A stretch of 34,535 bases of DNA, taken from assembly GCA_022824225.1 (NCBI GenBank), contig JAJEAH010000022.1:1-34535 (forward strand), in the 5' to 3' direction. The notes beneath the pieces were generated by a model that saw nothing but the letters and a program-made list of their open reading frames with translations, searched no databases and was not told the origin of the DNA. Positions 16,215 through 34,312 of the stretch are shown one piece after another. This DNA comes from Chloroflexota bacterium. Its GTDB lineage: Bacteria > Chloroflexota > UBA11872 > VXOZ01. Both the position numbers and the translations under genes were made by a program. How positions within the stretch are numbered: the stretch's first letter is position 1; each line of letters starts with the position of its first letter.

Positions 16215-17111
16215 ATGCGTAACAGAACCGTACTCCTCGTTGGTGAGGACAACCTTGCCGAACGTGTCGAAGCCTATAAGCGCATCCTCTCGCCGGAGGC
16301 CATCACCATCCTCCGTCCCAGCGGCGGCGGCGAGGGACGCAACACGTTCCTCGGCGTGCCGGTTGCCCACGAGTGGCCGGGACCCGGCGACGGCATCGCG
16401 GACATTGCCGGTGAGGTTTCCGCCCGGCCCGCTGCCCTGCGCCGCGCCCTGGACAGCGGTCGCCAAGTCGTCATCCATCCGCCGTTCGGCGACTCTCTGG
16501 CTAATGAAGCCGAGGTCTTGGCTGCCTCGGGCGGAGCCGCGCGCGTAGCCCTGCCCGTGCACTTCACGCACAAGTACGAATCCGCGGCGCAGTCGGCGCG
16601 ATCCGGAATTGGCGAGATCATCACCGTGCGCGCCATCCGCGTCATGCCCCCCGCACAAGCATGGCAGCAGAGCCTTTTCTCATTGATGGAAGCGCTTGTG
16701 TTGCTGGGCGGGCCGCTCCAGCGGGTCTACGCAAAGGCCGCGGCGCTCACGTCGTCAGACACCGACACGGTGTTCTGTAACGGGCGCTACGCCAACCGGG
16801 CAATACTGTACGGCGAAATGAGTGGCGCGTACCCCGGACACTATCGCAAGGAAGTCATCGAAGTCACGGGACGCGACGGCATGGTGGAATATGATTCCAA
16901 TGCCCGCAGTGTCTGGATGGCCTCCGAGAGCGGGCTAACGTTGACCGAGGCCTATCACCGTTCGCCCTACGAGAAGATGGTTGCCGCTTACATCCAGGCA
17001 TGGGACGCGGGCGACGATACGAGCCCCACACTGCCTGACGCCGCGCCCATCATGGGCGCATACTGGGCGGCAATGAGCAGCATCGCACAGAATGAGGTGG
17101 TAGCGATATGA
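16215..17111 (+). CDS. Degenerate Gfo/Idh/MocA-like protein lacking the EKP motif
   Basis: The 298-residue product has no strong motif, but its middle aligns by eye with Gfo/Idh/MocA dehydrogenases: ALDSGRQVVIHPPF...ANEAEVLAASG stands where the family has ALxAGKHVLxEKPLA...EAxxLxxAA, followed by RVALPVHFTHKYESA and GIGEIITVRAI. The catalytic EKP is HPP here (88-90), and the N-terminus lacks a clear GxGxxG. The later part (GRDGMVEYDSNARSVWM) matches the family's substrate-domain G.KG.ie.d strand. It is likely a non-catalytic paralogue or a partner subunit. Its stop overlaps the next gene's start (ATGA, 4 nt), which supports joint production. The assignment is from pattern, not a search. Confidence 0.6.
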   Translation: MRNRTVLLVGEDNLAERVEAYKRILSPEAITILRPSGGGEGRNTFLGVPVAHEWPGPGDGIADIAGEVSARPAALRRALDSGRQVVIHPPFGDSLANEAEVLAASGGAARVALPVHFTHKYESAAQSARSGIGEIITVRAIRVMPPAQAWQQSLFSLMEALVLLGGPLQRVYAKAAALTSSDTDTVFCNGRYANRAILYGEMSGAYPGHYRKEVIEVTGRDGMVEYDSNARSVWMASESGLTLTEAYHRSPYEKMVAAYIQAWDAGDDTSPTLPDAAPIMGAYWAAMSSIAQNEVVAI

Positions 17112-18142
17112 GCGCGCCCCGGGCACTGAACATTGGCGCTGTTTCCTTCGACCACGGGCACCAGAACGGATACGTGTCGGCCATACTGGAACTGCCGTCG
17201 GCCAACCTCGTCGCCGCGTCGGACACCGTGCCCGAACAGCTCGACGCCATGCGCGGCATGTTGGCGGCGCATCCGGAAGCCCCGGAGGTCAAGGTCTTTT
17301 CGGACTACCGCGAGCTTTTGGAACTTGACGAGGTCGAGGCGGTCTCGATTTGCTCGGCCAACGCCGACCATGCCCAAATGACCATCGACGCCGCAAGGGC
17401 CGGGAAGCACGTGCTGTGCGAAAAGCCGCTCTGCATCACGCTGGAAGAAGCGGACGCCATGATTGCCGCGTGCCGGGAGGCGGGCGTGTACTTGGCGACG
17501 GCCTATCCGTGCCGGTTTGGGCCGGTGGCATGGCAGGCTAAGCAGCGCGTAGACGCCGGCGAGATTGGCGACATCCTCGCCATGCAAGGCACCAACCACC
17601 TCCGCCCCTTTACCGAAGGGTGGTTCATCGACCCGGAGCGCTCCGGCGGCGGCACGATTCGCGACCACATCGTCCACGTGACCGACTTGATGCGCTGGTT
17701 CACCGGCAAGGAGATCGTCGAGGTCTACGCGGAAGGCGACACGCTCAAGCGGCCGCACATTGCCGTGGACGACGTTGCCATTCTCGTGGAGACGTTCGAG
17801 GGCGGCATCCTTGCTTCCACCGATCCCTCGTGGAACCGGCCGGAAAACTGGACCAAGTGGGGCAACGTCTATCTGCGCGTGCTCGGCACGCGGGGCATGA
17901 TCGAATTCGAGCTGACGGGGCAGGCCGTCGTGCGCACCGAGAGCACGAGCAGCTCTGTTACGTCGATTGATACATCGGAGTCGATGAATTACTATTTGCT
18001 AAAGGACTTCTGCGAGGCCATTATCGCTGGACGCTCGCCGTTGGTCACAGGGAAAGACGGTCGCGCCGGGGTGGAAGCAATCCTGGCAGCCTATCAGTCC
18101 ATCGAGGAAGGGCGGCCGGTTCGTATCGGCGCTCGCCGGTAA
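17108..18142 (+). CDS. Gfo/Idh/MocA-family NAD(P)-dependent oxidoreductase
   Basis: Probable dehydrogenase of a sugar, cyclitol or related polyol. The 344-residue product has the catalytic ARAGKHVLCEKPL (EKP at 105-107), AYPCRFGP, the G.IGDI strand at about 151-155, and GGGTIRDHIVHVTDLMRWF with His190 and Asp193 in the usual active-site places. The nucleotide-binding loop is unusual: IGAVSFDHGH replaces GxGxxG/A. The C-terminal domain ends in typical VEAILAAYQSIEEGRPV. It is coupled by a 4-nt overlap to the degenerate paralogue upstream. The last codons lie within a 19-bp tandem repeat that continues past the stop. Substrate unknown. Confidence 0.9.
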   Translation: MSAPRALNIGAVSFDHGHQNGYVSAILELPSANLVAASDTVPEQLDAMRGMLAAHPEAPEVKVFSDYRELLELDEVEAVSICSANADHAQMTIDAARAGKHVLCEKPLCITLEEADAMIAACREAGVYLATAYPCRFGPVAWQAKQRVDAGEIGDILAMQGTNHLRPFTEGWFIDPERSGGGTIRDHIVHVTDLMRWFTGKEIVEVYAEGDTLKRPHIAVDDVAILVETFEGGILASTDPSWNRPENWTKWGNVYLRVLGTRGMIEFELTGQAVVRTESTSSSVTSIDTSESMNYYLLKDFCEAIIAGRSPLVTGKDGRAGVEAILAAYQSIEEGRPVRIGARR

Positions 18143-18215
18143 CGTCGGCGCTCGCCGGAGATGTCGGCGCTCGCCGGAGATGTCGGCTGCGCCGGAGATG
18201 TCGGCTGCGCGACGG
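18123..18215. repeat. 18-19-bp tandem repeat spanning the end of an oxidoreductase gene
   Basis: Five units of 19, 19, 19, 18 and 18 bp share TCGGCGCTCGCCGGAG or the shortened TCGGCTGCGCCGGAG (unit starts at 18123, 18142, 18161, 18180, 18198). The first unit encodes the last residues of the oxidoreductase and the stop codon sits at its end (18140-18142). This suggests slippage expansion outward from the gene's 3' end. Each unit holds a small GGCG/CGCC dyad. Confidence 0.85.
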
Positions 18216-18280
18216 TAAAGCGTTCTGTGTACTTGTGATTGAGCGCCGGTATGTAACGCTCCAGGAGGCGGAGGAAAGCA

Positions 18281-18682: not shown

Positions 18683-19714
18683 ATGGCGGGTGATCGTCTG
18701 GGCACGGCCGTTATAGGCGTGGGTCTCATCGGCGAACAACACGCCGACGTCTACGCGGCGTACCATCGTGCGAACCTGGCCCTGGTCTACGACGCCAACC
18801 CACAACGCGCTCAAGCCGTGGCCGAACGCCTGGATTGCCGGGCCGCCCCGGACCTGGCAGCAATCGCGGACTCAGACGTAGCGCTGGTGAGCGTGGCCAC
18901 CCCCGATTTTGCCCATCGCGACGCCGTCGTTGCCATGCTTGACGCCGGCAAGCACGTGCTGGTGGAAAAACCGCTGGCCACCACCGTGGCAGACGCGGTC
19001 GCTATGGTCCGGGCCGCCGAGCGCAACAACCGCCACCTGAGCATTAGCTTAGGCAACCGCTGGAGCGAGGACATACAGGACTTGCGCGACTGCGTGCAGA
19101 GCGGTGAAATTGGCGATCCCATCTTTGGCTTTTCGCGCCTTTCCGATACGGTGTGGGTTCCCACCCAAATGCTTTCCTGGGGCAGCGAATCCGGCCCGCA
19201 CTGGTTCCTCTATCCCCACACCATGGACTACATGCGCTGGATCATCGGCCAGGAGGCCAAGCGCGTATACGCCCGGGGCGAGAAACGCCTGCTGCCGCAA
19301 AAGGGCGTGGACGCCTACGACTACGTGCAAGCTATGGTGGAGTTCGAAAACTGCACCATCACGTTCGAGACGTCGTGGATCGTGCCCGAAGGCTACCCGG
19401 CCATCGTCGAACAGTACCTCTCACTCTACGGCACGAAAGGCAAAGTGACGCTGGACCGCTCCAACCGCGGCTTTGCACTGGATACGGAAGAACGGCAACT
19501 GACCATCAGACCCAAGATGTGGTCGTATTTCAAGACCCCGGATTCGTGGGGCAACTCCATGCGGAATGTGGTGGACTGCATCTTGGACGGCGGCGAACCG
19601 GCCATTCCCGGCAGCGACGGCCTGGCGGTGGTTGCGATGATCGAGGCCGCAGAGCGGTCCATCGAAACCGGCCAGCCCGTGGAGCCGGCGCGTTTGATCC
19701 AAGAGCACGCATAG
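18683..19714 (+). CDS. Gfo/Idh/MocA-family oxidoreductase
   Basis: A canonical family member of 343 residues: nucleotide-binding GVGLIG (12-17), catalytic VEKPLA (EKP at 95-97), GNRWSEDI in place of the RF motif, SGEIGDPI, and the active-site pair His179/Asp182 in PHTMDYMRW. The substrate domain has ETSWIVPEGYP and YGTKGKVTLDRSN. GAGGAG lies before the ATG. The substrate is probably a sugar or cyclitol but cannot be read from sequence. It is third of four related genes in a row and only about as similar to its neighbours as family members in general, so recent duplication is unlikely. Confidence 0.92.
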   Translation: MAGDRLGTAVIGVGLIGEQHADVYAAYHRANLALVYDANPQRAQAVAERLDCRAAPDLAAIADSDVALVSVATPDFAHRDAVVAMLDAGKHVLVEKPLATTVADAVAMVRAAERNNRHLSISLGNRWSEDIQDLRDCVQSGEIGDPIFGFSRLSDTVWVPTQMLSWGSESGPHWFLYPHTMDYMRWIIGQEAKRVYARGEKRLLPQKGVDAYDYVQAMVEFENCTITFETSWIVPEGYPAIVEQYLSLYGTKGKVTLDRSNRGFALDTEERQLTIRPKMWSYFKTPDSWGNSMRNVVDCILDGGEPAIPGSDGLAVVAMIEAAERSIETGQPVEPARLIQEHA

Positions 19715-19865: not shown

Positions 19866-20876
19866 ATGGAACAGATTGGCATAGGTGTAATCGCCGCCGG
19901 TCAGATGGGCCAGCGGCACGCAAATGTCTACCGGCAGCTTCCCGACGCGCAACTGTGGGCCGTAGCTGACGTGAATGCCCAGGCCGCCCACGCCGCCGCC
20001 GATCCGGCCGGCGCAACCGTATACGCCGACTGGCGCGATCTGCTCGATCGCGAGGACATTCAGGCCGTAAGCATCTGCCTGCCGGACTGGCTGCACCGGG
20101 ACGCGGTGATCGCGGCGGCGGAGGCCGGCAAGCACATCCTGCTCGAGAAACCCCTGGCCATCGACGTGGCCGACGCTGACGACATGGTGGCTGCCGTGAC
20201 ACGGGCCGGCGTCACGCTGCTCGTGGGCCAGACCCTTCACTTCGACCCCCGCTACTCAATGCCGCTTGAAGCCTACCGGCGCGGCGATATTGGCGAGGTC
20301 ATCCACGTTTACGCCCGGCGCAACAACCCCATTACCAGCGCCGAGAAGTTCGAGGGCAACACCACGGTGCTGCAATTCCTCGGCATCCACGACATCGAAT
20401 ACGTGATCTCACTGGTGGACGAACCCGTAGTGCGGGTAACGGCCGAGTCGCATCGCGCGCTGGCTAGCGACCTCGGCATCGATGACGCCGTTTTCACGCT
20501 GGTGAGATTCGCGTCCGGCGCAATTGCCAGCTTCGAGCACGCCTGGACGTTGCCGGTGCAAGACTTCCGCGCGCTGGACGCGCGACTCGACGCCGTGGGG
20601 ACGAAAGGCATGATCCGCATCGATTGCGCGCCGGCTACGAGCATGACGGTTTCGCCGGCGGGCGTGGACACCCACGACACGTGGTACGGGCCGACTTTTG
20701 GCGACGACTACGCCGGCGCGATCTACCACGAGGTGCGGCACTTCGTGCATTGCGTCCGCACCGGCGCTGAACCGGCAGTGAGACTCGAGCACGCCTATCA
20801 AGCCGTCCGGGTGGTAGCCGCGGCGCAAGAGTCGGCCGCCACCGGCATGCCCGTTAGCCTAGCGGAGAATCGCTAA
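19866..20876 (+). CDS. Gfo/Idh/MocA-family oxidoreductase
   Basis: The fourth family member, 336 residues. It has the nucleotide-binding GVIAAGQMG (7-15), catalytic LEKPLAI (EKP at 94-96), HFDPRYSMP, RGDIGEVIHVYARRNN and GIHDIEYV (His175, Asp176). The C-terminal helix ends AAAQESAATGMPV. The start is ATG 19866, chosen because GGGAGGAG lies just upstream and the conserved first strand follows. The frame extends to GTG 19821, but that would put the start inside the 22-bp palindrome. Substrate unknown; N-terminal form and the HD motif are those of myo-inositol or sugar dehydrogenase relatives. The last codons and stop are duplicated downstream in a 49-bp tandem repeat. Confidence 0.92.
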   Translation: MEQIGIGVIAAGQMGQRHANVYRQLPDAQLWAVADVNAQAAHAAADPAGATVYADWRDLLDREDIQAVSICLPDWLHRDAVIAAAEAGKHILLEKPLAIDVADADDMVAAVTRAGVTLLVGQTLHFDPRYSMPLEAYRRGDIGEVIHVYARRNNPITSAEKFEGNTTVLQFLGIHDIEYVISLVDEPVVRVTAESHRALASDLGIDDAVFTLVRFASGAIASFEHAWTLPVQDFRALDARLDAVGTKGMIRIDCAPATSMTVSPAGVDTHDTWYGPTFGDDYAGAIYHEVRHFVHCVRTGAEPAVRLEHAYQAVRVVAAAQESAATGMPVSLAENR

Positions 20877-20959
20877 GTACCGCCCATAGTCCGTTCGTGC
20901 TGAGCTTGTCGCGGAGAATCGCTAAGTACCGCCCTTATTCCGTTCGTGCTGAGCTTGTC
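20862..20959. repeat. 49-bp tandem duplication including a gene's stop codon and a palindromic repeat half
   Basis: Units 20862-20910 and 20911-20959 differ at two positions. Each contains the last codons and stop of the oxidoreductase (GAGAATCGCTAA) plus CCGTTCGTGCTGAGCTTGTC, the left half of a dispersed palindromic element that also occurs at 33109-33127. The repeat lies in the 123-nt gap between convergent genes. Confidence 0.88.
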
Positions 20960-20999: not shown

Positions 21000-22271
21000 T
21001 CAAGTCACCACCCGCTCAAGCTGGCCGAACACCTTTTTGATCGCCCGCACGTATGCCGCCATCAGGGTTTCATTATTGGGTGGCGTCAGCCCCATCAGGG
21101 GGATGACCCGGTCCACCGCCTTGGCCGCATGCGGGTAGTCCTCCGGCCGGTACGTTATATCACCGCCATAGCGGCATTCCCACGGGCAGCCGCGGCCGTA
21201 GCCCTGTTTCTCCTGGAAGAGCGTCATGCGGGGCAGCAAGAATTCCGCCCGTCCCAGACCGACGCCTTCCGCCCGCAGCGCCTCGCGCACCTGTTCGCTC
21301 GCGGCGGCGGGCTCTACGTCCAAACCCACCTCTTCCGGCGCAAACTCGGCGACAAACCGGAAGTACACGTGCGTCCGATCAGTGGGCACGTGGGGCAAGC
21401 GCAGGCCGGGAATCCCCGCCAGGTGCTCGTGCAGGTACGCGGCGTTCGCCTGAATGTGCGCCGTCGTCTCAGCCAAGCGCGTGAACTGCGAGCGGACGAA
21501 GGCGTTGGACATCTCCGTTGCCCGGTACATCCAGCCCATGCCGTAGACGTTGTACTCGCGCTCGCCGTCGGAGCGGCGCCGCTCGCCAAACTGCTGCACC
21601 CGCGCGGCCATGTCCCAGGCCTCGTCATCGTCGGTCACCAGCGCGCCGCCTTCGCCGCCGGGCAGGTTCTTATTGCCGTTGAAGCTGTACGCGCCCACGT
21701 GACCGATAGCGCCAACCGCGCGGCCCTTGTACGTAGCGGCATGGGCCTGGCAGCAGTCCTCGATCACGTTCAGCCCATGCTTTGCCGCCACCGCCATGAT
21801 GCCGTCCATGTCAGCCGGCAGGCCGTAGAGGTGCACCGGCAGGATCGCGCGCGTGCGCGGCGTGATTTTCTTCTCTACCTCTTCGGGGTCCAGCGTGTAA
21901 GTCGTGGGATCGATGTCGGCAAAGGCCGGAATCGCGTTGTGGTGCAAGATGCTGGTCGCCGTAGACGACCACGACATGGGCGTGGTGATAACCTCATCGC
22001 CCGGCTGCACGCCCGCCGCGGCCACGGCCATGTGCAGGGCCGCCGTACCGCTGTTCGTCACCAGGCAGTGCTTTGCCCCCACATAGTCTTTCCACTCATC
22101 TTGCAGAGCGGCCCCCTCCGGCGCCGCCGCGCCCCACAGCACACCGCGTTCCAGCACACCCATCACCGCTTCTTTGTCTGCTGTCGTGATACGGGGCCAC
22201 CCTGACACGGAGCCCGCCGTCACCGCCGGCGGCCCGCCCAATACGGCGAGTTCTTCCTGGACTTTCAGCAT
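21000..22271 (-). CDS. DegT/DnrJ/EryC1/StrS-family PLP-dependent aminotransferase
   Basis: These enzymes transaminate keto-sugars or keto-cyclitols in amino-sugar, antibiotic and surface-glycan synthesis. The 423-residue product has TNSGTAALHMAV (PLP phosphate contact, about 72-83), PGDEVITTPMSWSSTA, Asp172 in VIEDCCQAHA, and SFNGNKNLPGGEGG with the Schiff-base Lys201. The Gfo/Idh plus DegT pairing is seen in pathways that oxidise and then aminate a ring hydroxyl (for example inosamine and kanosamine synthesis), so the pairing with the convergent oxidoreductase cluster is suggestive. AAGGAGG lies 6 nt before the ATG. It ends the minus-strand block, 75 nt after the CBM9-like gene. Confidence 0.92.
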   Translation of the reverse strand: MLKVQEELAVLGGPPAVTAGSVSGWPRITTADKEAVMGVLERGVLWGAAAPEGAALQDEWKDYVGAKHCLVTNSGTAALHMAVAAAGVQPGDEVITTPMSWSSTATSILHHNAIPAFADIDPTTYTLDPEEVEKKITPRTRAILPVHLYGLPADMDGIMAVAAKHGLNVIEDCCQAHAATYKGRAVGAIGHVGAYSFNGNKNLPGGEGGALVTDDDEAWDMAARVQQFGERRRSDGEREYNVYGMGWMYRATEMSNAFVRSQFTRLAETTAHIQANAAYLHEHLAGIPGLRLPHVPTDRTHVYFRFVAEFAPEEVGLDVEPAAASEQVREALRAEGVGLGRAEFLLPRMTLFQEKQGYGRGCPWECRYGGDITYRPEDYPHAAKAVDRVIPLMGLTPPNNETLMAAYVRAIKKVFGQLERVVT

Positions 22272-22346: not shown

Positions 22347-23024
22347 CTACTCTTCGCTAAAGACCACGTACCCGAACCGGTTCGGCATGTGAAACTGGAT
22401 TTCGCCGGTGGGCGACCAGGCGCTGTATTCGTCGGCATCGCGGGCGCGGTCGATGCGGTAGAAGTTGGCGCGCCAGCGGTCCCCGTGGCGGGGCGGAATG
22501 TGCGGCGCGGTCATGCACTGATCGAACGGAATGGCGATTTCGGTCGACCACGAGCGGTCCGTGCCCGTGCGGGAGTTCACGACTCCATCCACCTGCACCG
22601 CGGTCTGCAAGTCGGGGCAGTCCCAACAGAAGAGTTCGTGGCTCTTGCCGCCGCGCCGGTAGACTGCTAGGTCGACGATGACGTTGTTGGGGCTGACCTC
22701 GAATTCGAGAAACGACCACTCGTCGCAATTGTCATCCAGAAACACCTCCACCACTTCCTCATCCCACAGCGGCTCATCCCGTTTGGTATACGTGCCCCAG
22801 ATGTCGGGGTCCGTAGCGTGAAAGCCCACGTAAAGATTGGTATCGTCCCACAAGGCGCGCACAACCGTTGGGTAGCGCGGCTCGTCACCGGAGACGGTTT
22901 CTACGAGGTGCATTTGCTCGGCCTGTGCCCACGCCGGTTCGTCGAGCGCGCCGTCTACGGTGATCGGAGACGTGGCGCGGCGGCAGGTGTAGGTAGGAAG
23001 TGGGGGGAGGTCGGAATTTGCCAT
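22347..23024 (-). CDS. CBM9-like carbohydrate-binding domain protein
   Basis: A single-domain 225-residue protein resembling the family 9-like carbohydrate-binding fold (also seen in DOMON-type sugar-binding modules). Visible pattern: TVDGALDEPAWAQAE at about 22-36, then VRALWDDTNLYVGFHATDPDIW, DEEVVEVFLD, FLEFEVSPNNVIVDL, and the late WSTEIAIPFDQ and RANFYRIDR strands. No signal peptide is seen, unlike most secreted CBM9 proteins, so it would be cytosolic as annotated. No catalytic residues are expected. AAAGGA precedes the ATG. It stands between the DUF3604 and DegT genes on the same strand and may bind the same sugar. Confidence 0.82.
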   Translation of the reverse strand: MANSDLPPLPTYTCRRATSPITVDGALDEPAWAQAEQMHLVETVSGDEPRYPTVVRALWDDTNLYVGFHATDPDIWGTYTKRDEPLWDEEVVEVFLDDNCDEWSFLEFEVSPNNVIVDLAVYRRGGKSHELFCWDCPDLQTAVQVDGVVNSRTGTDRSWSTEIAIPFDQCMTAPHIPPRHGDRWRANFYRIDRARDADEYSAWSPTGEIQFHMPNRFGYVVFSEE

Positions 23025-23384: not shown

Positions 23385-25688
23385 TTACGTCACATCTAAC
23401 CACACCGGGCTCGACCACGCCATTTCTTCATCCTCTTGGGTTACGCGCACGTAGTAGAAGTCGCCGGTGGATGCCTCTGAGTCGTCTTCCCACACCAGGT
23501 CAACCCCGGATTCTGGATTCTGCCACGTGTGCACGTTCTCATTGTTCTTGACTATGTCGATTGTGCTGAGCGGCGCGGTGCCGATGACGTTCACCACGAG
23601 CCGACGCGTATCTGACGCTCCCAGCGCAATATCCTCTCCCATCCAATGGCCGTTTACCTTGAATGACAGCAGAATACGCTGGCCGGACGTGCCATAGGTG
23701 CGCCGCGCCCGCCACGCCTCGAAGACCTCTTTACGCGTGAGGCCGGTCGCCCACACCACTGCCAGACCCGACGGCTTCCAGATCGCGTCGGCCACCGACT
23801 TGCTGAACTGGTCGCCGATGCCCGCGTAGCCGGGACGCGCGTCGTGGTTGTCGCTGCCGGCGATTACGCCCACCCGCGAGCCGGTTGCGAGCACTTCCTG
23901 CAACGAGAGGCCGCCCTGCGACCGCCACGGCTGGCGCGGGTTGCCGCGTATTTCCGAGTTGCCCCAGCCGGAGTACATCTCCAGCAATCGCTCGTACTTT
24001 GGGTTGTGCTGGTGCCACTTGATTCCCGCCAAAGGATGGTGGCCGAACGCCAGCACGTCCTCACGCCCTTCGAAATGCTGCCACATGCGCTCCAGATTCC
24101 CTGTGGCAACCGTGCTGCCGCGCAGGATTTGGTGGTAGTCGTTTTCGCTGTACACATTACGGTGGCCCAGGCCGTGGTTCTCGCCGTCCGCACCCGTGTA
24201 TGCCCATTCGAAGCCGCTGATGGGCATGAATTCCCCCGGTTTGTGATAGCGCTGAACCAATATCTGATTGGCCGTCCACTGGTTGTCGGTCTCGTATTCG
24301 GCATGCTCCGAGGCGCACATGAAGTCGAGGTTGGCTATGTGGCGGCCGTGCTCGTATTGGGCCTCAATTTCGCCCACCGCGTCACCGGAGTACAGGGAGT
24401 GCGAATGGATGTCGCCAAAGTAGACCCGGTGTTCCGGCAGTTCCGCAGAGCCTACGACCGGGTTGGACACGCCCGCGAGCCCGTCATCCGTCTCAGCCGT
24501 AATCACGTACGTGCCCTCGCCCTTTGGCACCCAACTAACGCGGCAATGGCCCCCGTCACCCTCACGCAAGTAAATCGGGGCGGGGAGTTCTATATCGTCG
24601 CGGTCGCACGCAAAGCGCACGCGTCCGGTGTACGCCGGCTGGGCGAGCGCCTGGAATTGGTCCACCACCGCGACGTTGAGATCATGCGGCGCGCCGACCT
24701 GGGCATGGGCCTTGGCCGTGACGACGAGCTTGGCGGGCTTGTCTGTAACCACCGTAAACGAGTGGGCGTGGTCGCGCGCCAGCGGCAGAAACGTCTCGTT
24801 GGCGTTGGCGTCCACCCAGACCGTGAGCACCGGCATACGGTGCCACCACGCGCGCTTGTAATTGTGAGTATAGGTCCAACAGACGACGTTGGCCTGCGCG
24901 CCGGGACCGCCCCCGCTGCGGTCGCCGAAAACGAGAGTGATGGTATCGCCGGGCTGCAACGGCGCTTCGGACACGGTCACGCGAATGCCGTACTCCCGGT
25001 CGTGCAGGCCGGTGACCGGCTCGACGATTTCGGTTATGTTTACACGGCCGCTGCCTTCATGGGATACCGTCACGTAGCCTTTACCAGTCGGGTCTGCGGT
25101 CTGTGGCGTGTGGTCTTCCCGCCACAGGGAACCTTCCACGAACGCCAGAATGCCGCCGCCCACGGCGATGCCTTCTTTGCCCACGGTATAGGTCATGCGA
25201 AACTCGTGACGGGAGCAGGCAACAACCCTATCCGGGGTCAATTCGCTAAAGCCGCTGGGATCGCTGAACAGCGCGTGCAAATCGGACTCCGTGCTTACGC
25301 CCGCCGGGACGTCCAGTTCCAGATCGTCGCTGAGAATAACACCTTCAAAGCCCCGCAGCGTCGCCTCCGGTGTGGAGACGCGCATCTGCAGGAAGTTCTC
25401 GCGCAGTGCTACGGTCGCCACCCGCGTCCACACGGTTTCGGGCCGCACTTGAGGGTCCAAGCGCACGCGCCCGCTGGCGCCGTCCAGTTCGACTTCCACA
25501 TAGCGTTCTTCCGACGAATGCGGCGACACGCCCAGCCAGAGGCCGTACGGGCGGTCCGTAGGCCAGCCGCGGGTCTGGAGCGTCAGGTCGGCATTGGTGC
25601 GCTGGTAGTGCTGGCCGCGAAACGCGACCTTCTGCTCGCTATAGGCAAATTCCGTCGGCTCGAATAGCAGATAGCGGCGGTCGTTCAT
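23385..25688 (-). CDS. DUF3604 family protein (PHP-type metal-dependent hydrolase fold)
   Basis: DUF3604 proteins carry a PHP-like metal-binding region and are common near sulfatases in marine bacteria; their reaction is not established. The 767-residue product has a long beta-rich N-terminal part (to about residue 415) and then PHP-like motifs: YFGDIHSHSLYSGD (His428, His430), CASEHAEY (His462), FGHHPLAG (His550, His551) and AGSDNHDARPG (Asp613, His615). ATG 25688 is chosen: AGGAAAGGAAG precedes it and NDRRYLLFEPTEFAY begins the conserved region. The frame is open to 25841, but that extension has no family character. No signal peptide is visible, so it would be cytosolic. It is downstream of a sugar-binding lipoprotein gene and upstream of the CBM9-like gene. 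Confidence 0.88.
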   Translation of the reverse strand: MNDRRYLLFEPTEFAYSEQKVAFRGQHYQRTNADLTLQTRGWPTDRPYGLWLGVSPHSSEERYVEVELDGASGRVRLDPQVRPETVWTRVATVALRENFLQMRVSTPEATLRGFEGVILSDDLELDVPAGVSTESDLHALFSDPSGFSELTPDRVVACSRHEFRMTYTVGKEGIAVGGGILAFVEGSLWREDHTPQTADPTGKGYVTVSHEGSGRVNITEIVEPVTGLHDREYGIRVTVSEAPLQPGDTITLVFGDRSGGGPGAQANVVCWTYTHNYKRAWWHRMPVLTVWVDANANETFLPLARDHAHSFTVVTDKPAKLVVTAKAHAQVGAPHDLNVAVVDQFQALAQPAYTGRVRFACDRDDIELPAPIYLREGDGGHCRVSWVPKGEGTYVITAETDDGLAGVSNPVVGSAELPEHRVYFGDIHSHSLYSGDAVGEIEAQYEHGRHIANLDFMCASEHAEYETDNQWTANQILVQRYHKPGEFMPISGFEWAYTGADGENHGLGHRNVYSENDYHQILRGSTVATGNLERMWQHFEGREDVLAFGHHPLAGIKWHQHNPKYERLLEMYSGWGNSEIRGNPRQPWRSQGGLSLQEVLATGSRVGVIAGSDNHDARPGYAGIGDQFSKSVADAIWKPSGLAVVWATGLTRKEVFEAWRARRTYGTSGQRILLSFKVNGHWMGEDIALGASDTRRLVVNVIGTAPLSTIDIVKNNENVHTWQNPESGVDLVWEDDSEASTGDFYYVRVTQEDEEMAWSSPVWLDVT

Positions 25689-25916: not shown

Positions 25917-27287
25917 CTACTGGCCGACGCCCAGCCGGGCCAGTTCTTCTTGTTCTTTTTCTAGCACCAAGTCACCGGCTTTCACCGCAGTCGCCACCGC
26001 TTCATCGATGCCGACCTCGTTCAGCCAGCCCTTGTTGAGTTCGTCCCGCACGGCCGCTACCCATTCATTCGTAAAGAACGAATACGGATACGGGTAGCCG
26101 ATTTCCATGGAGTCCACGAAAATCTTGGCCGGTTCGGGGTAGTCGCTGAGTTTCGCCCAGTTGGCCGCGCCGCGCCACGTGGCGGGCAAATTCCACACCG
26201 CCGTCGACTGCTCGCCCGCTTCGGAAGTAGTGGAGTGCTTGATGAATTCCCAGGCCTCATCAGGATGCTCGATGGGATTGAGCACCGCCATGGCGCCGGC
26301 GTGGATGACGCTGGCCGACTGCATGCTCACGGGCAGCACCTGGGCGTGCCAGCGGAATTCGGCCATTTGCGGGCGGCCAAAGAGGAACGAGCCGCTGGGC
26401 ATGAGCGCCAGTGAACCCGTGGTGAACATTTGGAAAGCGCCGCCCAGCGCCGACGCTTCCTCGTTCGTGGGCGCCACCCGGTACTTGTAGACCAGATCGT
26501 GTACCCACTTGATGGCATCCAGGCCGGGCGCTTCGCCAAACCGAAACGCGGTTTTGTCCTCGCTGAGAATCTCACCGCCGTTAATGACGATCCAGTTGTA
26601 GCCCTGGGTCTGCCCCCACGGGCCCACCTGCGTGCCCCAACGCTCCACCTTGTCGCCCTGGCGCACGGTGAGCTGCTCGGCCAGACTGAGCCAGTCCTCC
26701 CAGTTCCAGTTGTCCTGGGGCACGTCTATGCCGGCCTGCTCGAAATGGTCCACATTGTAGAACATGCCGACGGTCGCTTGGTTCTTCGGCATACCCCAGA
26801 AGTTGCCGAACAGCGTGTAGATATTGAGGGCGTACGGTGCGAATAGGTCCGCCATGTCAATGCCGTCGCGGGCGACGTATGGGTCCAATTCGGTCAGCAT
26901 GCCCAGCGCGGCGAAAGACATGATGCCGTGGGCGTTGATCCACATGAGGTCGTAGGGGATCGAGCCGGCGGCCGCCGCAATCTTGAGGTTGTTCTGCATC
27001 TCGGTCTGATTGGGCGTAATGTCGGTGGTCACGTTGATGCGATCGCCGAACTCCGCGCGATACGCCTCATTGACCCGGTTGTTGTCGTCAGCGACCACCT
27101 GGGCGTGGGTGATGCCCTTGAGTTCGACGGTCTCAGGCTCGGGAGCGGCTTCGGCGGCCGGCTTGGCTTCAGCCTGTTCCGCCTCCGGGGCGGGGGCGAC
27201 GGCGGCTGCGCCGCAGGCAGCCAGCGGAACGGCAAGACCGGATGCGCCCAGCAGCGCCAACAGCTTGCGTCGCGTCGTAACAACCAT
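25917..27287 (-). CDS. ABC transporter sugar-type substrate-binding lipoprotein
   Basis: An extracellular solute-binding protein of the family 1 (maltose-binding-like) type, 456 residues. The N-terminus TTRRKLLALLGASGLAVPLAAC has a twin-Arg-like stretch and a lipobox (LAAC, Cys25), followed by an Ala/Glu/Pro-rich linker. Typical elements: KIAAAAGSIPYDLMWINA, GMPKNQATVGMFYNVDHFEQAGID, WNWEDWLSLAEQLT, GSLALMPSGSFLF and the late PDEAWEFIKHSTT. A GGGAGGCG ribosome site is present. No permease or ATPase gene is in the window, so it is an orphan here. The substrate is probably a sugar or oligosaccharide, inferred from the family and neighbours. Confidence 0.92.
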   Translation of the reverse strand: MVVTTRRKLLALLGASGLAVPLAACGAAAVAPAPEAEQAEAKPAAEAAPEPETVELKGITHAQVVADDNNRVNEAYRAEFGDRINVTTDITPNQTEMQNNLKIAAAAGSIPYDLMWINAHGIMSFAALGMLTELDPYVARDGIDMADLFAPYALNIYTLFGNFWGMPKNQATVGMFYNVDHFEQAGIDVPQDNWNWEDWLSLAEQLTVRQGDKVERWGTQVGPWGQTQGYNWIVINGGEILSEDKTAFRFGEAPGLDAIKWVHDLVYKYRVAPTNEEASALGGAFQMFTTGSLALMPSGSFLFGRPQMAEFRWHAQVLPVSMQSASVIHAGAMAVLNPIEHPDEAWEFIKHSTTSEAGEQSTAVWNLPATWRGAANWAKLSDYPEPAKIFVDSMEIGYPYPYSFFTNEWVAAVRDELNKGWLNEVGIDEAVATAVKAGDLVLEKEQEELARLGVGQ

Positions 27288-27320: not shown

Positions 27321-28250
27321 TCACTTCTGCGCAACGGATACGGGAGCAGCATACTGGGCTACCGCCCTGTTTGTCAACCGTGACCACGCATCCAGTTCTT
27401 GCAGCGACCGGTCATCCACCAACGCCGCCGGCTGGCGCACAGTGGCATGGTCGATTGCTCCCGCCCGGAGGAGAAGGTGTTTCGCGGATTGAATGAACGA
27501 CTGCAGATTGCCCCCCTTAGCCACAAGGACGGGCAGCATAGCGGCATAGATAGCGCGCGCGCCGTCAGTGTCGCCCGCCACATAGCGTTCGTACACCTGC
27601 CCCATCGGGCCGATAGCATCCGCGCCGGGCATGCAGCCGACCGCGCCGCGCTCCAACGCCTCGATGAAGCCGATGCCGCCCCAGCCCACGAGCATCTTCA
27701 GCCGGTCGCCAACCTGCTCCTTCAGCGCTTCCATGAGCGGCCACGCGGGCTGCGCTTCCAGTTTCACGTATTGGATGCTCGGACACTGTTCCGCCATCTG
27801 CGCGATCACATTGGCGGTAAGCCCATACCCCACCACTTGCGGGCAGTCTTGCACCATGATGGGCACGTCTACGTTCTCGGCGATCGCGGCATAGAATTGC
27901 TGGACTCCCAGTGTATCCACGGGGCCCGGCGGCGGCAGGACCATGAGGCCGGCCACACCGGCTCCCACCAACCACCGCGCCATGCGTACGGCCTCCACAG
28001 TGGAGGCCGCCTGCAGCCCGGAAATCACCGGCACTCGTCCAGCGACTCTGCTGCCGACGGTGTCAATGATCCGCTGCTTTTCCTCTTCACTCAAGCGATT
28101 TGTCTCACTGGCGAGACCCAGGCACACCACCGCATGCGTCCCCTCGGACACGACGTAGTCGGCCAGCCGCCGGAGACTGTCGTAGTCCACCGATTCATCC
28201 GGGTAGAACGGCGTGCAAAGCACCGCCAGCACACCATGAAAGTTGCTCAT
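27321..28250 (-). CDS. DapA-superfamily lyase/aldolase, probably not dihydrodipicolinate synthase
   Basis: A class I, Schiff-base TIM-barrel enzyme of the DHDPS/N-acetylneuraminate lyase superfamily, 309 residues. The Schiff-base Lys163 is in IQYVKLEAQ. GLASETNRLSEEEK replaces the GTTGE phosphate/carboxylate motif, and VQDCPQVVGYG replaces the LYNxPxRTG strand, so the proton-relay Tyr of DapA is Gln. True lysine-pathway DapA activity is therefore unlikely. Sugar-acid (keto-deoxy) aldolase or dehydratase activity fits the neighbourhood better. It lies 33 nt upstream of the sugar-binding lipoprotein on the same strand. Confidence 0.88.
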   Translation of the reverse strand: MSNFHGVLAVLCTPFYPDESVDYDSLRRLADYVVSEGTHAVVCLGLASETNRLSEEEKQRIIDTVGSRVAGRVPVISGLQAASTVEAVRMARWLVGAGVAGLMVLPPPGPVDTLGVQQFYAAIAENVDVPIMVQDCPQVVGYGLTANVIAQMAEQCPSIQYVKLEAQPAWPLMEALKEQVGDRLKMLVGWGGIGFIEALERGAVGCMPGADAIGPMGQVYERYVAGDTDGARAIYAAMLPVLVAKGGNLQSFIQSAKHLLLRAGAIDHATVRQPAALVDDRSLQELDAWSRLTNRAVAQYAAPVSVAQK

Positions 28251-28791: not shown

Positions 28792-30087
28792 CTATTCCTG
28801 CGCAGGCGCTGCAATAGGGACTACTTCCACTTCCTCGATCCGCTCGTCCGCCGTGAAGCGCCAGACGCCGATGTGACCGCGCCGCAGGTCGCCGTTTTCG
28901 TCCCAGTCCAGCGTCGTTGCCGCACCCTCGTAGTTGACCTCTCCGCCTTCCGCCAAAACCTGCAGTCCGGCGGCGATACTCTCCACTCCGGCAGTCACAA
29001 CCACGCCCGGCTCGCTGCCGATGGCGCGCAACTCGTCGCGTATGGCGGCGCCTTCTACGCTTTCTGCCGCCTGGGCAGCAAGCGCCAGGGCGATGGTTGC
29101 GTCATATGTTTCCCTAACGTAGGCGTATTCCGGCAGCGACCCATATTCGGCGGCATAGGCCGCTTCCCAAGCGGCGGCCGAAGCGCTCTTGGGATCGGAT
29201 GTCCCCGCCGTGCCGTACATGCCGCCCAGGCGGTTGCCGCCAATTGCGCGCACTAACGCCGGGCTCTTCGCGGCGTCGCCAAATAAGAACTGGTCGTATA
29301 TTCCCTGCGCCAACGCTTCACTCACAATAGTCTCTGCCGCCTGCTCGAAGGTAATGACGACGAGCGCCTGCGCGCCTTTGCCCGCGCTCTGCTGCAGCGC
29401 AGCGCGTACGGCGGTCTGGTCGGGATCGAACACTACCATTGCGATTTCGCCTTCCCAAGCAGCGGCAAAGGCGTCTGCCAGGCCCTGCCCCCACGCGTCA
29501 TCTATGTAGATGACGCCAACATTGGTGAAGCCGAGCTCTCGCGTGATGCGCGCCAGTACGGGGCCTTGGGCGCTATCGGCAAGGGCGGTGCGAAAGAAGA
29601 AGTCGTTGTCCGCTGCCGTAGTCAGCAGCGGTGAGGTAGCAGAGGGACTGATAAGCGGTATGCCCGCAGGCCCGGCTACACGCTCCGCCACCTGCAGCGA
29701 GTTGGCGCTGGAACTGGGGCCGACGAGCGCGTGGACCCCCTCCTCCTCGATCAGGCGCCGCGCCGCTTCCACCGCCACCGTTGGGTCGCGGGTAGTGTCG
29801 CCCACCGCGACTTCCACCGGGAAGCCAAACACGCCGCCGCCGGCGTTGATGTGCTTGATAGCCATATTGAAAGCACGCTGCCGTTCTGTCGCTCGCTCTG
29901 TTGCGCCCTCGCTAAAATTCAGCAGCAGACCGATCTTCAAAGGAGTGTCGGCCGCCGCGGCCGGCGCAATTGGAGTCTGGGAGCGAAGCTCCGTCCTGCC
30001 GCAGCCTGCGGCCCCAAGAAGTAAGACGAGGCAGAATGCCGTGCAGAATACGTGGCTGATTCGCCGTCGGAGAAACACCAGTGTCAC
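28792..30087 (-). CDS. LivJ-like ABC substrate-binding lipoprotein (periplasmic-binding fold type I)
   Basis: A 431-residue member of the branched-chain amino acid or amide-binding group (Peripla_BP_6). The signal peptide ends in lipobox LGAAGC (Cys29). Then come PLKIGLLLNFSEGATERA, AIKHINAGGGVFGFPVEV, ALVGPSSSANSLQVAERVAGPAGIPLISPSATSPLLT and FTNVGVIYIDDAWGQGLADAF, in the family order. The start shown is GTG 30087, where GGGAG is very close. GTG 30078 would give better spacing with the signal peptide intact, so the start is uncertain by three codons. No permease or ATPase gene is adjacent. The ligand is unknown; such proteins bind amino acids, amides, urea or aromatic compounds. Confidence 0.92.
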   Translation of the reverse strand: MTLVFLRRRISHVFCTAFCLVLLLGAAGCGRTELRSQTPIAPAAAADTPLKIGLLLNFSEGATERATERQRAFNMAIKHINAGGGVFGFPVEVAVGDTTRDPTVAVEAARRLIEEEGVHALVGPSSSANSLQVAERVAGPAGIPLISPSATSPLLTTAADNDFFFRTALADSAQGPVLARITRELGFTNVGVIYIDDAWGQGLADAFAAAWEGEIAMVVFDPDQTAVRAALQQSAGKGAQALVVITFEQAAETIVSEALAQGIYDQFLFGDAAKSPALVRAIGGNRLGGMYGTAGTSDPKSASAAAWEAAYAAEYGSLPEYAYVRETYDATIALALAAQAAESVEGAAIRDELRAIGSEPGVVVTAGVESIAAGLQVLAEGGEVNYEGAATTLDWDENGDLRRGHIGVWRFTADERIEEVEVVPIAAPAQE

Positions 30088-30161: not shown

Positions 30162-31127
30162 CTACCGGGCCTCTGTACCTGCGGATTCTGCCGTCAACGA
30201 CTCGCTCACCCCCCACAGCCGCCGCGCCGCCTCCGCGTCATACGAAACCGGCGACGATTCCACCGCCTCGCGCCGTTCGAAGAAGCGCCCACTCACTTCA
30301 GCAACTTCGGGCGCGGCGGCAAGGTAGACCACGGTATCTGCTCCCTGCGCCGGTGTCAGTAGGAGCGGGCGGGCAAGCTTCACGGCAAACCCAAGCAACG
30401 GCGGCAAGTGTCTGAAGAGCGCTGTTGACACCACGCCGGGGTGGAGGCAATTCGCGGTGACACCGGTACCCACCAAGCGGCGGGCCAACTCATACGTGAA
30501 ATAGACGTTCGCAAGTTTCGACTGGCTGTAGACGTCAAACGGCACATAGCGCTGCTCATTCTGCAAATCGTCGAAGTTGAGCGGGACCCGCCGGTGCGCC
30601 CCGGAGCTGACGGTTACGATGCGGGCGGGCGCGCCGGCCTTGAGCCGGTCGAGCAGGAGATTGGTGAGCAGAAACGGCGCGAGGTGGTTTACGGCAAATA
30701 TCAGCTCCAGACCGTTTTCGTCTGTCACCCGCCGCTCCCACGGCGTCACGCCCGCATTGTTGACAAGCACGTCGAGCCGGTCGCATTGCGCCAGAATTGC
30801 CGCCGCCTCGCGTACCTGCTGCTGGGAACTGAAATCGGCTAGCACGAGCGAAACGGCATCGTTGCCCGTTTGCGCCTTTATGTCGTCCAGAGCCTCAGTC
30901 CCGCGCGCCTCGCTCCGGCACACCAGCACCACCGTCGCGCCCATACGCGCCAATGCCAGCGCCGTTTCCTTACCGATGCCGGAGTTCGCGCCGGTGACCA
31001 CGCAGACCTTGCCCCGCAAATCGACGTCGATAGGGTCGAGCGTCGCCTTGCGGGTCCGGCTGATGGCCTTAAGGCCCACACCCAGGTTGGACGTTGCGGT
31101 CTGAACTCTTCTTAGCATTGGTGACAT
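30162..31127 (-). CDS. Short-chain dehydrogenase/reductase, retinol-dehydrogenase-like
   Basis: An NAD(P)-dependent SDR of 321 residues. The Rossmann motif VVTGANSGIGKETA begins near residue 43, CRSEARG follows strand 2, then the cofactor Asp of LADFSSQ, NNAG near 133, catalytic Ser in VTVSSGAHRRV, and YSQSK (Tyr-x3-Lys). NHLAPFLLTNLLLDRL and the CLHPGVVSTALFRH loop match the retinol dehydrogenase/WW-oxidoreductase-like subgroup. About 38 residues precede the domain; whether translation starts at ATG 31127 or at the ATG three codons later is open. The true substrate is unknown. The nearest gene on the same strand is 74 nt downstream (LivJ-like). Confidence 0.92.
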   Translation of the reverse strand: MSPMLRRVQTATSNLGVGLKAISRTRKATLDPIDVDLRGKVCVVTGANSGIGKETALALARMGATVVLVCRSEARGTEALDDIKAQTGNDAVSLVLADFSSQQQVREAAAILAQCDRLDVLVNNAGVTPWERRVTDENGLELIFAVNHLAPFLLTNLLLDRLKAGAPARIVTVSSGAHRRVPLNFDDLQNEQRYVPFDVYSQSKLANVYFTYELARRLVGTGVTANCLHPGVVSTALFRHLPPLLGFAVKLARPLLLTPAQGADTVVYLAAAPEVAEVSGRFFERREAVESSPVSYDAEAARRLWGVSESLTAESAGTEAR

Positions 31128-31397: not shown

Positions 31398-31546
31398 TCA
31401 CTCCGCTGCGCTCCGTTCGGAATGACATGTGAACGAGCTATGCACGGTACTGAGTTTCCCTGCTTGGACTGCCAAGTCTGTCAAGGAATTACCTGGCATT
31501 TACAATTCCCGGCGAAGGACGGAAACCACTTTCTCCGCACTCCTGG

Positions 31547-31566
31547 AATCCGGCTTTCGCCGGAGT
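31547..31566. repeat. REP-like hairpin after the sulfatase gene
   Basis: AATCCGGC-TTTC-GCCGGAGT with one mismatched pair, 11 nt beyond the sulfatase stop codon on the transcribed side. It may protect the mRNA 3' end. Same family as 23231-23250. Confidence 0.7.
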
Positions 31567-31576
31567 GACAAAACAC

Positions 31577-33058
31577 CTAATGCCGTACATCCACCTGCCA
31601 GTACTCCGTGTGTGCGCCGGGCTGATTCTGGTTGCGCATGTCCTCGTCCGGCACGTGCACCTCGTCCCGCACCGGCAAGTCGTCGTCTTCCAGGTACTTC
31701 CCGCCGCGCTCGCGCTGCCGGCGCAAGAGTTCGTCGCGCAACTCCTCTTTCTTGGCCGCGGCGCTGCGCTCGTAGGCCAGGTTGTGCGCCTCCCGGGCAT
31801 CGGTCTCCAGGTCGAAGAGCAGTTCCGCGGGGCCTTCCGGGTACCACATGTACTTCCAACGGCCGTCCGTAATTCCCAGGTAGACGCAGTCCAGACGCAG
31901 GTCTTTGCCGGTGGGCCCGGGGCCGTTCACCCCTTCAAGGTACCGGCGCGGCGATTCAAGCTCGCCCCGCGCCAGGGCTACCAGGTCCTGGCCGTCGGTT
32001 TCGGCGGGCGGCTCGCCGCCGGCCGCCTTGACCAACGTCGGCAGGATGTCGGCATGGGTCACCGGGGTTGCGACTTGCGTGCCGTGGCAGCGGTTGTCCC
32101 AGCTACTCGGCATGCGCATGGCAAATGGGACATGCGCCGACGGCTCGTGGAAGTGACTCTTGGCGCCGGCGCGGTGGTCGCCCAGGAACTCACCGTGGTC
32201 TGAAGTATAGATGATCATCGTGTCGTGATAGAGCCCCAGGTCTTCCAACGCGCTGTACACCCGCGCCATGTTGTAGTCGATCTGCGTGATCAGTCCGTAG
32301 TAGGCCGATCGCGCCTCACGGATTATCTTCGGGGGCATGAGGTCGTAGGTCCGGCGCTTCTGCTGCTTGGCGAACGCCGGCGGACACTGGTCGCTGTCCC
32401 GCCAGTCGCCGATGACGGGGGCCGGAATCTCTTCCTGGCGATACATCGAGTAGTAGGGCTCCGGCGGATCGAACGGCGGGTGGGGTTTCGTGAATGAGCA
32501 CCAGAGAAAGAACGGCACGGTTGGGTCCCGGCGAAAGTGTATGTACGCCACGCACTGTTCAGCAATCCACGAGGTAAGTGTCAAGGCTTCGGGCACCGTG
32601 GCCATGCCGGGGTAGAGCTCGTTCTGGCCCAGGCCGTGCCGCATGGGCTGCAACGCGTTGCCTGAGTGGCGCATCTGGCGGTAGTAGTCATCGGGCAGGA
32701 TCATTTCTTCGAAGCCGTGCCGCGCCCGCTCCGGCCCGAAATGCATCTTGCCGATGGCAATCGTCTGGTAGCCCAGTTCCCGCAAGTGCGCCGGCAACGT
32801 GCCTTCCCGGCCCAGGATCTTAGACGTGATGCCGTTGCCGGTCATGCCGTGACTGAATACCTGTTGGCCCGTCATGACGCCCATGCGCGAGGGCACACAC
32901 ACCGGATCATCCGAGTAGCCGCTCGTGAACGTGACACCCTCGTGGCGCAGGCGGTCATAGTGCGGCGTGCGCAGGAAAGACGGCCCCGCGCCGCCGGAGG
33001 CGTCGTAGCGTTGCTGGTCGGTTGTAATGAGCAGGATGTTCGGCTGGGTTTGAGCCAT
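31577..33058 (-). CDS. Type I sulfatase (alkaline phosphatase superfamily)
   Basis: A sulfate ester hydrolase of 493 residues. The formylglycine signature is CVPSRMGVMTG with Cys54 in C-x-P-S-R, to be converted by an FGE maturase not present here. Other active-site elements are the metal Asp in LLITTDQQRYD (about 14), GKMHFG (Lys104, His106), the FTKPHPPFDPP block (Lys191, His193), and TSDHGEFLGDH (Asp287, His288) followed by KSHFHEPSAHVP. ATG 33058 is chosen: GGAGGG lies 8 nt upstream, and the extension to TTG 33085 has no family character. No signal peptide is visible, so this would be a cytosolic sulfatase acting on an imported ester. The substrate is not deducible. Confidence 0.95.
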   Translation of the reverse strand: MAQTQPNILLITTDQQRYDASGGAGPSFLRTPHYDRLRHEGVTFTSGYSDDPVCVPSRMGVMTGQQVFSHGMTGNGITSKILGREGTLPAHLRELGYQTIAIGKMHFGPERARHGFEEMILPDDYYRQMRHSGNALQPMRHGLGQNELYPGMATVPEALTLTSWIAEQCVAYIHFRRDPTVPFFLWCSFTKPHPPFDPPEPYYSMYRQEEIPAPVIGDWRDSDQCPPAFAKQQKRRTYDLMPPKIIREARSAYYGLITQIDYNMARVYSALEDLGLYHDTMIIYTSDHGEFLGDHRAGAKSHFHEPSAHVPFAMRMPSSWDNRCHGTQVATPVTHADILPTLVKAAGGEPPAETDGQDLVALARGELESPRRYLEGVNGPGPTGKDLRLDCVYLGITDGRWKYMWYPEGPAELLFDLETDAREAHNLAYERSAAAKKEELRDELLRRQRERGGKYLEDDDLPVRDEVHVPDEDMRNQNQPGAHTEYWQVDVRH

Positions 33059-33098: not shown

Positions 33099-33149
33099 CG
33101 CTCTCATCCGTTCGCGCTGAGCTTGTCGAAGGGTGAACGGATGAGAGCG
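33099..33149. repeat. Long perfect inverted repeat upstream of the sulfatase gene
   Basis: A 15-bp arm (CGCTCTCATCCGTTC, 33099-33113) and its exact reverse complement (33135-33149) enclose a 21-nt loop containing GCTGAGCTTGTCGAAGG. It is the full-length form of the palindromic element whose left half is duplicated at 20862-20959. It lies 41 nt upstream of the sulfatase start, so it could form part of that gene's 5' region. Confidence 0.88.
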
Positions 33150-33186
33150 CTCCCTTATCCTGAGCCAAATGTGTTTCGATGAGCCT

Positions 33187-33214
33187 GTGCTGAGTTTTTC
33201 GAAGTGCTCAGCAC
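33187..33214. repeat. Second palindromic repeat in the sulfatase upstream region
   Basis: GTGCTGAG (33187-33194) pairs with CTCAGCAC (33207-33214) around TTTTTCGAAGTG. A further CCTCAGCACGAGCGGTTCAGAATGAC-type half follows at about 33248-33272. The three elements make a small cluster between the glycosidase-like and sulfatase genes. Confidence 0.8.
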
Positions 33215-33286
33215 GAACGTACGTCAACGCCTACATAGCACGGCTGCCTCAGCACGAGCGGTTCAGAATGACGTATGCGCACAGGC

Positions 33287-34312
33287 CTACAGTTCCTGAT
33301 ACGCCTCGACCACATTCTGCCAGGCCAACGCCGGATCGCCGCCCCAGTCATAGAGCGTGCCGCCCGGTTCGCCCAAGAACGACCACACGGCCAGCATGTC
33401 CGCGCCCATTTCTGCTGCGGTCAAAATAGTGCGCTTCACGTCCGGCTCGCGCTTCGGCGGAATCCAAATCGACTGCACCCAAATCTGGCAGGGCTTGTCG
33501 TATTTGTGCGCAAGTTCGATTGCCTTGCGCGTATTGTGCTCGAAGTACTCCCAGTCCCCGCCGTGGCGGTGGATCCAGTACGGGTCGGTGGAGAATACAT
33601 CCACTTCAGGCACCGCGACAAAAGGCTCCCAGTCGTCAACGCCGTACCAGCCGGGACCCGAAGCCGGATGGTTCCCACTCTCATCCAGCGGCATCAGGCA
33701 GAGCACGTTCTCACCGCCGCCGACTTCCTTGCTGGCGCGAAGCAGTCGTGTCAAGAATATCAGAAGTGAGTCCTGGCGAAACTGGCGTACGTCGGCATCG
33801 AGCTGCGTCGGCATGGCGCGCTTGAAGCGTCGGGAAAAACCCTCCTGGCACGACGCGCAGCGGCACGCCCACACGTTGGGAAAGTTGCTGTCGCTGGAGA
33901 AATGCGGCTCATCCCAGAAGACGCCGTCCGGCGCAAAGTGCGGCGTGATCTCCCGCACCCGCTCCTCCATCCATGCGGCAAACTCCGGGTTGTTCGGACA
34001 CGCCATGGCTTCCGTGGAGCGAACGCCGTTGGAGAAATACTGCGCGGCCGCCGGATTTTCCAGGAGATAACGGGTCGATTGGATGTAGGAAGCGAACGCC
34101 CCAAAGCCGTGCCAATTCAGATACACCTTGAGTCCGAGCTCGCGCGCTTTCTCCACGATGCGTTCCCGGGCCGCCCTGAAGACGTACCAGTCACTCTCGT
34201 TCAGCGTCATGTTGATGGACGTGCACCCGGCGGCCTTGATTTCCTCCAGGTCCTGATCGTTGTGGTGCGGATACCAACCACCCGCGTAGGCGACGTTCTT
34301 GTCTGCGACCAT
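33287..34312 (-). CDS. Putative TIM-barrel glycosidase-like protein
   Basis: A 341-residue product with the look of a (beta/alpha)8 glycosidase-like protein, not assigned to a named family. GWYPHHNDQDLEEIKAAGCTSINMT resembles a first strand and helix. GLKVYLNWHGFG is a later strand, and DGVFWDEPHF (about 130-139) has the Asp/Glu-bearing strand end seen in such enzymes. It is followed by a Cys cluster in CRCASCQEGFSRRF, also seen in some uncharacterised glycosyl-hydrolase-like proteins. VDVFSTDPYW and PCQIWVQSIWIP give further barrel strands. No signal peptide is seen. It is upstream of the sulfatase gene on the same strand. Function is inferred and may not be hydrolytic. Confidence 0.65.
   Translation of the reverse strand: MVADKNVAYAGGWYPHHNDQDLEEIKAAGCTSINMTLNESDWYVFRAARERIVEKARELGLKVYLNWHGFGAFASYIQSTRYLLENPAAAQYFSNGVRSTEAMACPNNPEFAAWMEERVREITPHFAPDGVFWDEPHFSSDSNFPNVWACRCASCQEGFSRRFKRAMPTQLDADVRQFRQDSLLIFLTRLLRASKEVGGGENVLCLMPLDESGNHPASGPGWYGVDDWEPFVAVPEVDVFSTDPYWIHRHGGDWEYFEHNTRKAIELAHKYDKPCQIWVQSIWIPPKREPDVKRTILTAAEMGADMLAVWSFLGEPGGTLYDWGGDPALAWQNVVEAYQEL

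Follow-up and report, generated by a model that had tools for sequence, protein, structure and literature searches.

Several described systems resemble parts of the locus considered here, a gene block at positions 16215-34312 of a Chloroflexota contig that encodes, among others, a sulfatase, Gfo/Idh/MocA-like proteins, a DegT aminotransferase and two solute-binding lipoproteins. The contig (C17; 34,535 bp) was analysed in its entirety and is called the window below, the finding being confined to its right half. Sponge Chloroflexi of the Anaerolineae and Caldilineae have genomes rich in arylsulfatases and in genes of uronate and inositol degradation (PMC6306507). The S1_46 exo-sulfatase BT1918 desulfates 3S-GlcNAc and works in the periplasm (PMC10154612), and the TTT proteins of Bordetella and Rhodoplanes provide known examples of expanded orphan binding proteins (PMC5994714).

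The window belongs to a metagenome-assembled genome (MAG; G000) of 3.37 Mb in 87 contigs that is 95% complete. The records named with its closest relatives are the Chloroflexota MAGs RHO3_bin_22, Plut_88905 and SB0662_bin_44 together with a long-contig assembly; judging by isolate names, these relatives appear to be sponge-derived, and the window bacterium is a probable sponge symbiont. It thus shares with the sponge Chloroflexi of PMC6306507 a probable sponge association, expanded sulfatases and sugar catabolism, with a suggested use of sponge glycosaminoglycans. Unlike the genomes described there, the block has no uronate isomerase route; it is not among the features presented in the available part of the report.

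We propose that the block, next to the recQ-NUDIX genes, is an island of carbohydrate catabolism specific to the genus, probably serving a sulfated amino-sugar glycan fragment, a reading that we hold with about as much doubt as confidence. If intracellular desulfation of a host glycan does take place, it would offer a testable way for sponge symbionts to live off the host matrix. An earlier, sequence-only reading had proposed a candidate intracellular pathway for a sulfated and/or aminated sugar or cyclitol. Gene order in the genus, enzymes that are cytoplasmic by sequence, the formylglycine motif with its activating enzyme and the likeness to BT1918 support part of that proposal; a single pathway is not supported, for the reasons given below.

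Enzymes of the block

Every family named in the sequence-only reading was found as an open reading frame (ORF) and matched to Pfam or NCBIfam families; a short-chain dehydrogenase (SDR; 30162..31127, minus strand; PF00106, PRK06197-like) had been left out. Two sets of genes converge on each other: GfoA-B-C-D, encoded on the plus strand, and GHb-sulfatase-SDR-PBP6-DapA-SBP1-DUF3604-CBM9-DegT, encoded on the minus strand. A simple hydropathy scan, by which all signal peptides were judged, revealed no N-terminal hydrophobic segment in the enzymes, including the sulfatase and the other hydrolases, while both binding proteins, SBP1 and PBP6, carry a lipobox. The assertion that the hydrolases lack signal peptides and the binding proteins are lipoproteins therefore holds.

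The S1-type sulfatase (31577..33058, minus strand; PF00884, 157.5 bits) retains an intact C-x-P/A-S-R activation motif (CVPSR at residue 63), and one gene for the formylglycine-generating enzyme (FGE; PF03781) is present per genome in 6/6 genomes of the genus, so that by motif and FGE gene the sulfatase can be activated. Its ORF reaches 33085, although the true start is probably Met10 (~33058), from where the matches of relatives begin. The nearest solved sequence is 7oz8, that is BT1918, matched over nearly the full length; the likeness to this S1_46 type concerns the overall sequence. Unlike the periplasmic BT1918, the window sulfatase has no signal peptide, and cytoplasmic desulfation is plausible. 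A second, 65%-identical sulfatase occurs in the genus near a solute-binding protein (SBP) and FGE, but its gene set differs from that of the block.

The DapA homologue of the DHDPS superfamily (27321..28250, minus strand; PF00701, 123 bits) fails the dapA model (TIGR00674, 115.9 against a cut-off of 206), and by inspection the positions of the Thr-Tyr-Tyr triad are changed, as had been noticed earlier. Among solved structures it is best matched by L-2-keto-3-deoxyarabonate dehydratases, with 3fkk at the top (93 bits), and it shares with them the MVQD-P and K-(I/L)-E segments. Given the failed model and the likeness to 3fkk, a sugar-acid lyase appears more likely than DapA; the score with 3fkk is low, and no arabonate pathway genes were recognised near the DapA homologue. 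GHb (33287..34312, minus strand) is a TIM-barrel-like putative glycosidase with no Pfam or NCBIfam match of its own, the family of which has an invariant DEP and CxCxxC. Its relatives weakly match GH42 (best 1.3e-4) and GHL6, and its profile matches in the PDB (E 0.006-0.03) are glycosidases (fucosidase or galactosidase structures); a fold prediction from the single sequence reached a pLDDT of only 45 and was discarded. The CBM9-like domain protein (22347..23024, minus strand; PF06452, 48.9 bits) has no signal peptide.

Of the four Gfo/Idh/MocA-like proteins claimed earlier, three are canonical by Pfam. The exception, GfoA (16215..17111, plus strand), scores 23.9 bits with PF22725, below the cut-off of 27, and has neither the GxGxxG nor the EKP motif; it is 66-73% identical across the genus and, to judge from these features, is probably non-catalytic rather than a working dehydrogenase. 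GfoB (17108..18142, plus strand; PF01408/PF22725/PF02894), the frame of which overlaps that of GfoA by 4 nt, has EKP at 105 and PF01408 but not the usual glycine motif. GfoC (18683..19714, plus strand; canonical motifs GVGLIG and EKP) and GfoD (19866..20876, plus strand; EKP) both combine the NAD-binding domain with the EKP lysine; the likely start of GfoD is Met16 of the ORF at 19821, as inferred from a congener (G003). The best solved match of both GfoB and GfoD is 3ezy. The aminotransferase (21000..22271, minus strand), a pyridoxal phosphate (PLP) enzyme of the DegT/DnrJ/EryC1/StrS family with a FNGNKNLPGGEGG segment, matches PF01041 with 287 bits.

From this gene content we infer a substrate, an order of steps and a catabolic direction. 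A glycan fragment with sulfated, probably amino-substituted sugars would enter the cell, SBP1 and PBP6 requiring permeases encoded elsewhere; the sulfatase would strip the sulfate in the cytoplasm, where the glycan may be opened by the glycosidase-like barrel. The freed sugar would then be oxidised by Gfo-type dehydrogenases, DegT would add an amino group to a keto-sugar or remove one from it, and a resulting 2-keto-3-deoxy sugar acid would be the substrate of the DapA-type lyase.

Is the direction catabolic, or could the Gfo and DegT proteins produce an amino sugar or aminocyclitol like the Gfo-DegT pairs already known, the hydrolases having nothing to do with them? The best family-level matches of the Gfo proteins include myo-inositol and UDP-GlcNAc dehydrogenases, all far below cut-offs, and the solved relatives of DegT include scyllo-inosose aminotransferases. 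However, family matching and frame translations revealed no recognisable glycosyltransferase, nucleotidyl-transferase, cyclitol synthase or phosphatase in the block, and the sulfatase and binding proteins point to uptake, making such a biosynthetic locus the least probable of the explanations considered. The catabolic reading is the best fit to the absence of glycosyltransferase and nucleotidyl-transferase genes, to the solved relatives of the sulfatase and the DapA homologue, and to a GfoC homologue lying inside an ABC-importer gene run. The latter gene, located between the permeases and the ATPase, is one of two GfoC homologues (57% and 55% identical) in another Chloroflexota genome (G263). 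Moreover, a catabolic role fits the published account of sponge Chloroflexi (PMC6306507).

Conservation in the genus and chance proximity

In the six sequenced species of the genus, compared as far as each contig reaches, the order of the block is identical, and its proteins are mostly 75-95% identical. Beyond the point at which the window ends, the relatives possess a D-serine-dehydratase-like PLP enzyme, a second DapA homologue, an M20 peptidase, a second sulfatase, a NYN-domain protein and an SBP paralogue; genes continuing the block past the end of the window were found on another contig (C30) of the window's own genome.

A number of observations weigh against the catabolic-island reading. 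The housekeeping genes from purL to NUDIX, including recQ, are equally syntenic in the genus; therefore, synteny alone is no proof of functional linkage, and that of the block may be mere vertical inheritance. One species (G001) lacks SBP1 at the corresponding position, and unrelated genes are inserted between CBM9 and DegT in two others, namely, a TolB-like protein in G002 and an MFS transporter with a phosphoglycerate-mutase-like protein in G003 (named by inspection). Gaps of 350-550 bp occur inside the block, and none of its genes was recognised as a kinase, a lactonase or one of the usual sugar-acid dehydratases. None of the neighbourhoods inspected outside the genus brings the block set together. 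Finally, the nearest solved relative of DegT, 8gyh (303 bits), may be a non-sugar enzyme; it is presumably Fic25, acting on a non-proteinogenic amino acid.

This last point leads to another explanation, in which DegT and the CehA-like enzyme act on amino acids, amides or carbamates rather than on sugars; the aminated sugar would then be wrong and the sulfated substrate perhaps right. The DUF3604 protein (23385..25688, minus strand; PF12228) passes the CehA/McbA metallohydrolase model NF038032 (83.8 against a cut-off of 80) and has motifs of the metal type (HSH, SEH and GSDNH); members of this family include a carbaryl hydrolase. Its ORF reaches 25841, the true start being probably Met52 (~25688), from where the matches of relatives begin. 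Yet the neighbouring families are of the sugar type, and the solved matches of DegT that follow 8gyh are sugar or cyclitol aminotransferases; we consider non-sugar chemistry unlikely, if slightly less so than biosynthesis.

The search outside the genus bears on both the single pathway and the significance of the neighbourhood. Within the class, identity reaches ~40% for homologues of DegT and 51% for those of the sulfatase (G022), in neighbourhoods lacking the rest of the set. Relatives of GHb (32-35% identical) occur in three other Chloroflexota genomes: the neighbourhoods of two (G075 and G263) have no gene set in common with the window, and the third is located at a contig edge. Among the other 394 genomes sampled from the phylum, none yielded a DapA homologue with E <1e-60. 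Conserved co-localisation, on which the earlier proposal had been made to depend, thus extends to all six species of the genus but was found in none of the inspected loci outside it. The block consists of several small transcription units, and since these are separated by the gaps described and unrelated insertions are tolerated, a single dedicated pathway is unlikely; neither tightly spaced co-directional genes throughout nor, in the loci inspected outside the genus, recurrence in unrelated genomes, as expected of a single-pathway operon, was observed. The different neighbourhoods outside the genus, the absence of SBP1 from its place in one species and the lack of a recognisable kinase, glycosyltransferase or nucleotidyl-transferase likewise speak against it.

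Could the members, then, share no function at all and be a chance neighbourhood of separately regulated, hugely expanded families held together by vertical inheritance? The genome contains 82 PF01408 Gfo, 25 DegT-like, 29 sulfatase-like and 23 DUF3604-like matches in 3.37 Mb, corresponding at uniform density to 0.44 Gfo, 0.13 DegT, 0.16 sulfatase and 0.12 DUF3604 matches per 18 kb, and three canonical Gfo genes within 18 kb are expected ~2x per genome. The equal synteny of the housekeeping genes, the lack of co-localisation in the inspected loci outside the genus, and the insertions and gaps also agree with this explanation. On the other hand, the joint set is expected at ~7e-6 per window and ~0.001 over the genome, figures that assume uniform and independent placement of families picked after the fact; clustering in the block exceeds uniform chance, and nearly all members are kept across the genus despite 10-25% protein divergence. 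Chance proximity is therefore, in our estimation, a substantial contender but a clearly less probable one than the catabolic island. Catabolic genes commonly cluster, and these genomes seem to contain many islands comparable to the block.

Binding proteins and permeases

The enzyme families of the island are an ordinary cast; what is more unusual is how few permeases there are for its binding proteins to work with. SBP1 (25917..27287, minus strand; PF01547, 88 bits) is a sugar-type lipoprotein with an RR motif and lipobox (MVVTTRRKLL...LAACG), and PBP6 (28792..30087, minus strand; PF13458, 161 bits) is a type I (Liv-like) lipoprotein with the lipobox LGAAGC. Neither has the adjacent permeases and ATPase of an ABC importer: no PF00528 permease is present in the window, nor did the downstream 30 kb of G001 reveal one. 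The proposal that import comes first is accordingly weak, sugar permeases being very scarce in the genome.

In the window's own genome, to which the counts of binding proteins apply, 77 PF01547 (SBP_bac_1) proteins stand against 17 PF00528 (BPD_transp_1) permease domains, and 5/77 lie within 5 kb of a permease; PF02653, not included in the search, could provide permeases serving PBP6. The PF00528 permeases are of peptide/nickel, phosphate, amino-acid, iron/phosphonate-like, betaine, sulfonate and molybdate-like types (most by family matching, the rest by sequence reading), with only four of the sugar type, all on one contig (C49). PF00528 domains number 16-18 in the five better genomes of the genus, and since these genomes include the 9-contig G001, missing assembly is not the cause. 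Elsewhere in the class, most families have 21-61 such domains, one (f5) has 15-19, and one incomplete genome has 12. Among the SBP-like frames in the stretches fetched, 17/19 are lipobox-like and 16/19 twin-arginine-like according to loose patterns.

The closest parallels are the Bordetella Bug proteins and the 434 TTT SBPs in Rhodoplanes, where many binding proteins likewise accompany few membrane components (PMC5994714); unlike these TctC/TTT proteins, those of the window genome are ABC-type SBP_bac_1 lipoproteins. The literature search found no paper on an expansion of orphan SBPs of the ABC sugar type. Tentatively, we suggest that ~70 binding lipoproteins of the ABC sugar type are orphans in this genus, one of them encoded in the island, and that they either rely in common on one or two MalFG-like permease pairs (C49) or capture or sense their ligands instead of transporting them, so that each catabolic island would bring its own receptor to a common importer; this is possible, though in our view less likely than not. 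The mismatch matters for understanding sugar uptake by such symbionts in general, and is a reason not to equate binding proteins with importers when MAGs are annotated.

At C49:15500-29000, the sugar-type permease pairs lie beside a 1024-aa protein with an SBP_bac_1 domain at residues 620-914, together with an NHL/TPR/Yip1 membrane protein and a DUF5696 protein. On another contig (C22:1-13500), three binding proteins alternate with two sulfatases, with no permease nearby. The idea that the islands are built around orphan SBPs was rejected: among the matches listed, 13/25 Gfo genes lie within 8 kb of an SBP (p 0.01) and 9/25 within 5 kb (p 0.035), barely above chance, and DUF3604, DegT and sulfatase genes show no such proximity.

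Flanking genes and repeats

The left half of the window contains purine synthesis, ftsH-like, nrdR, mnmE, pyrE, recQ and NUDIX genes (several named by sequence reading), with an AAC(3)-family acetyltransferase homologue (7589-8347; PF02522) adjoining nrdR, for which a resistance function is not implied. At the opposite edge, a YNHTPRKCLGYQTPAEVFINQVLHLKCES frame (34429..34534, minus strand) is the C-terminal end of an apparent IS30-type transposase. Rfam and tRNA scans gave no matches, and promoter and terminator scans performed no better than on shuffled sequences. Short interspersed repeats of the GTGCTGAGCTTGTCGAAG type and CTGGATTCCGGCTTTCGCCGGAATGACA are present in the intergenic gaps of the block (20862-20963, 33107-33204, 23227-23254 and 31543-31570), and tandem repeats of the CGCCGGAGATGTCGGC type directly follow GfoB at 18126-18207.

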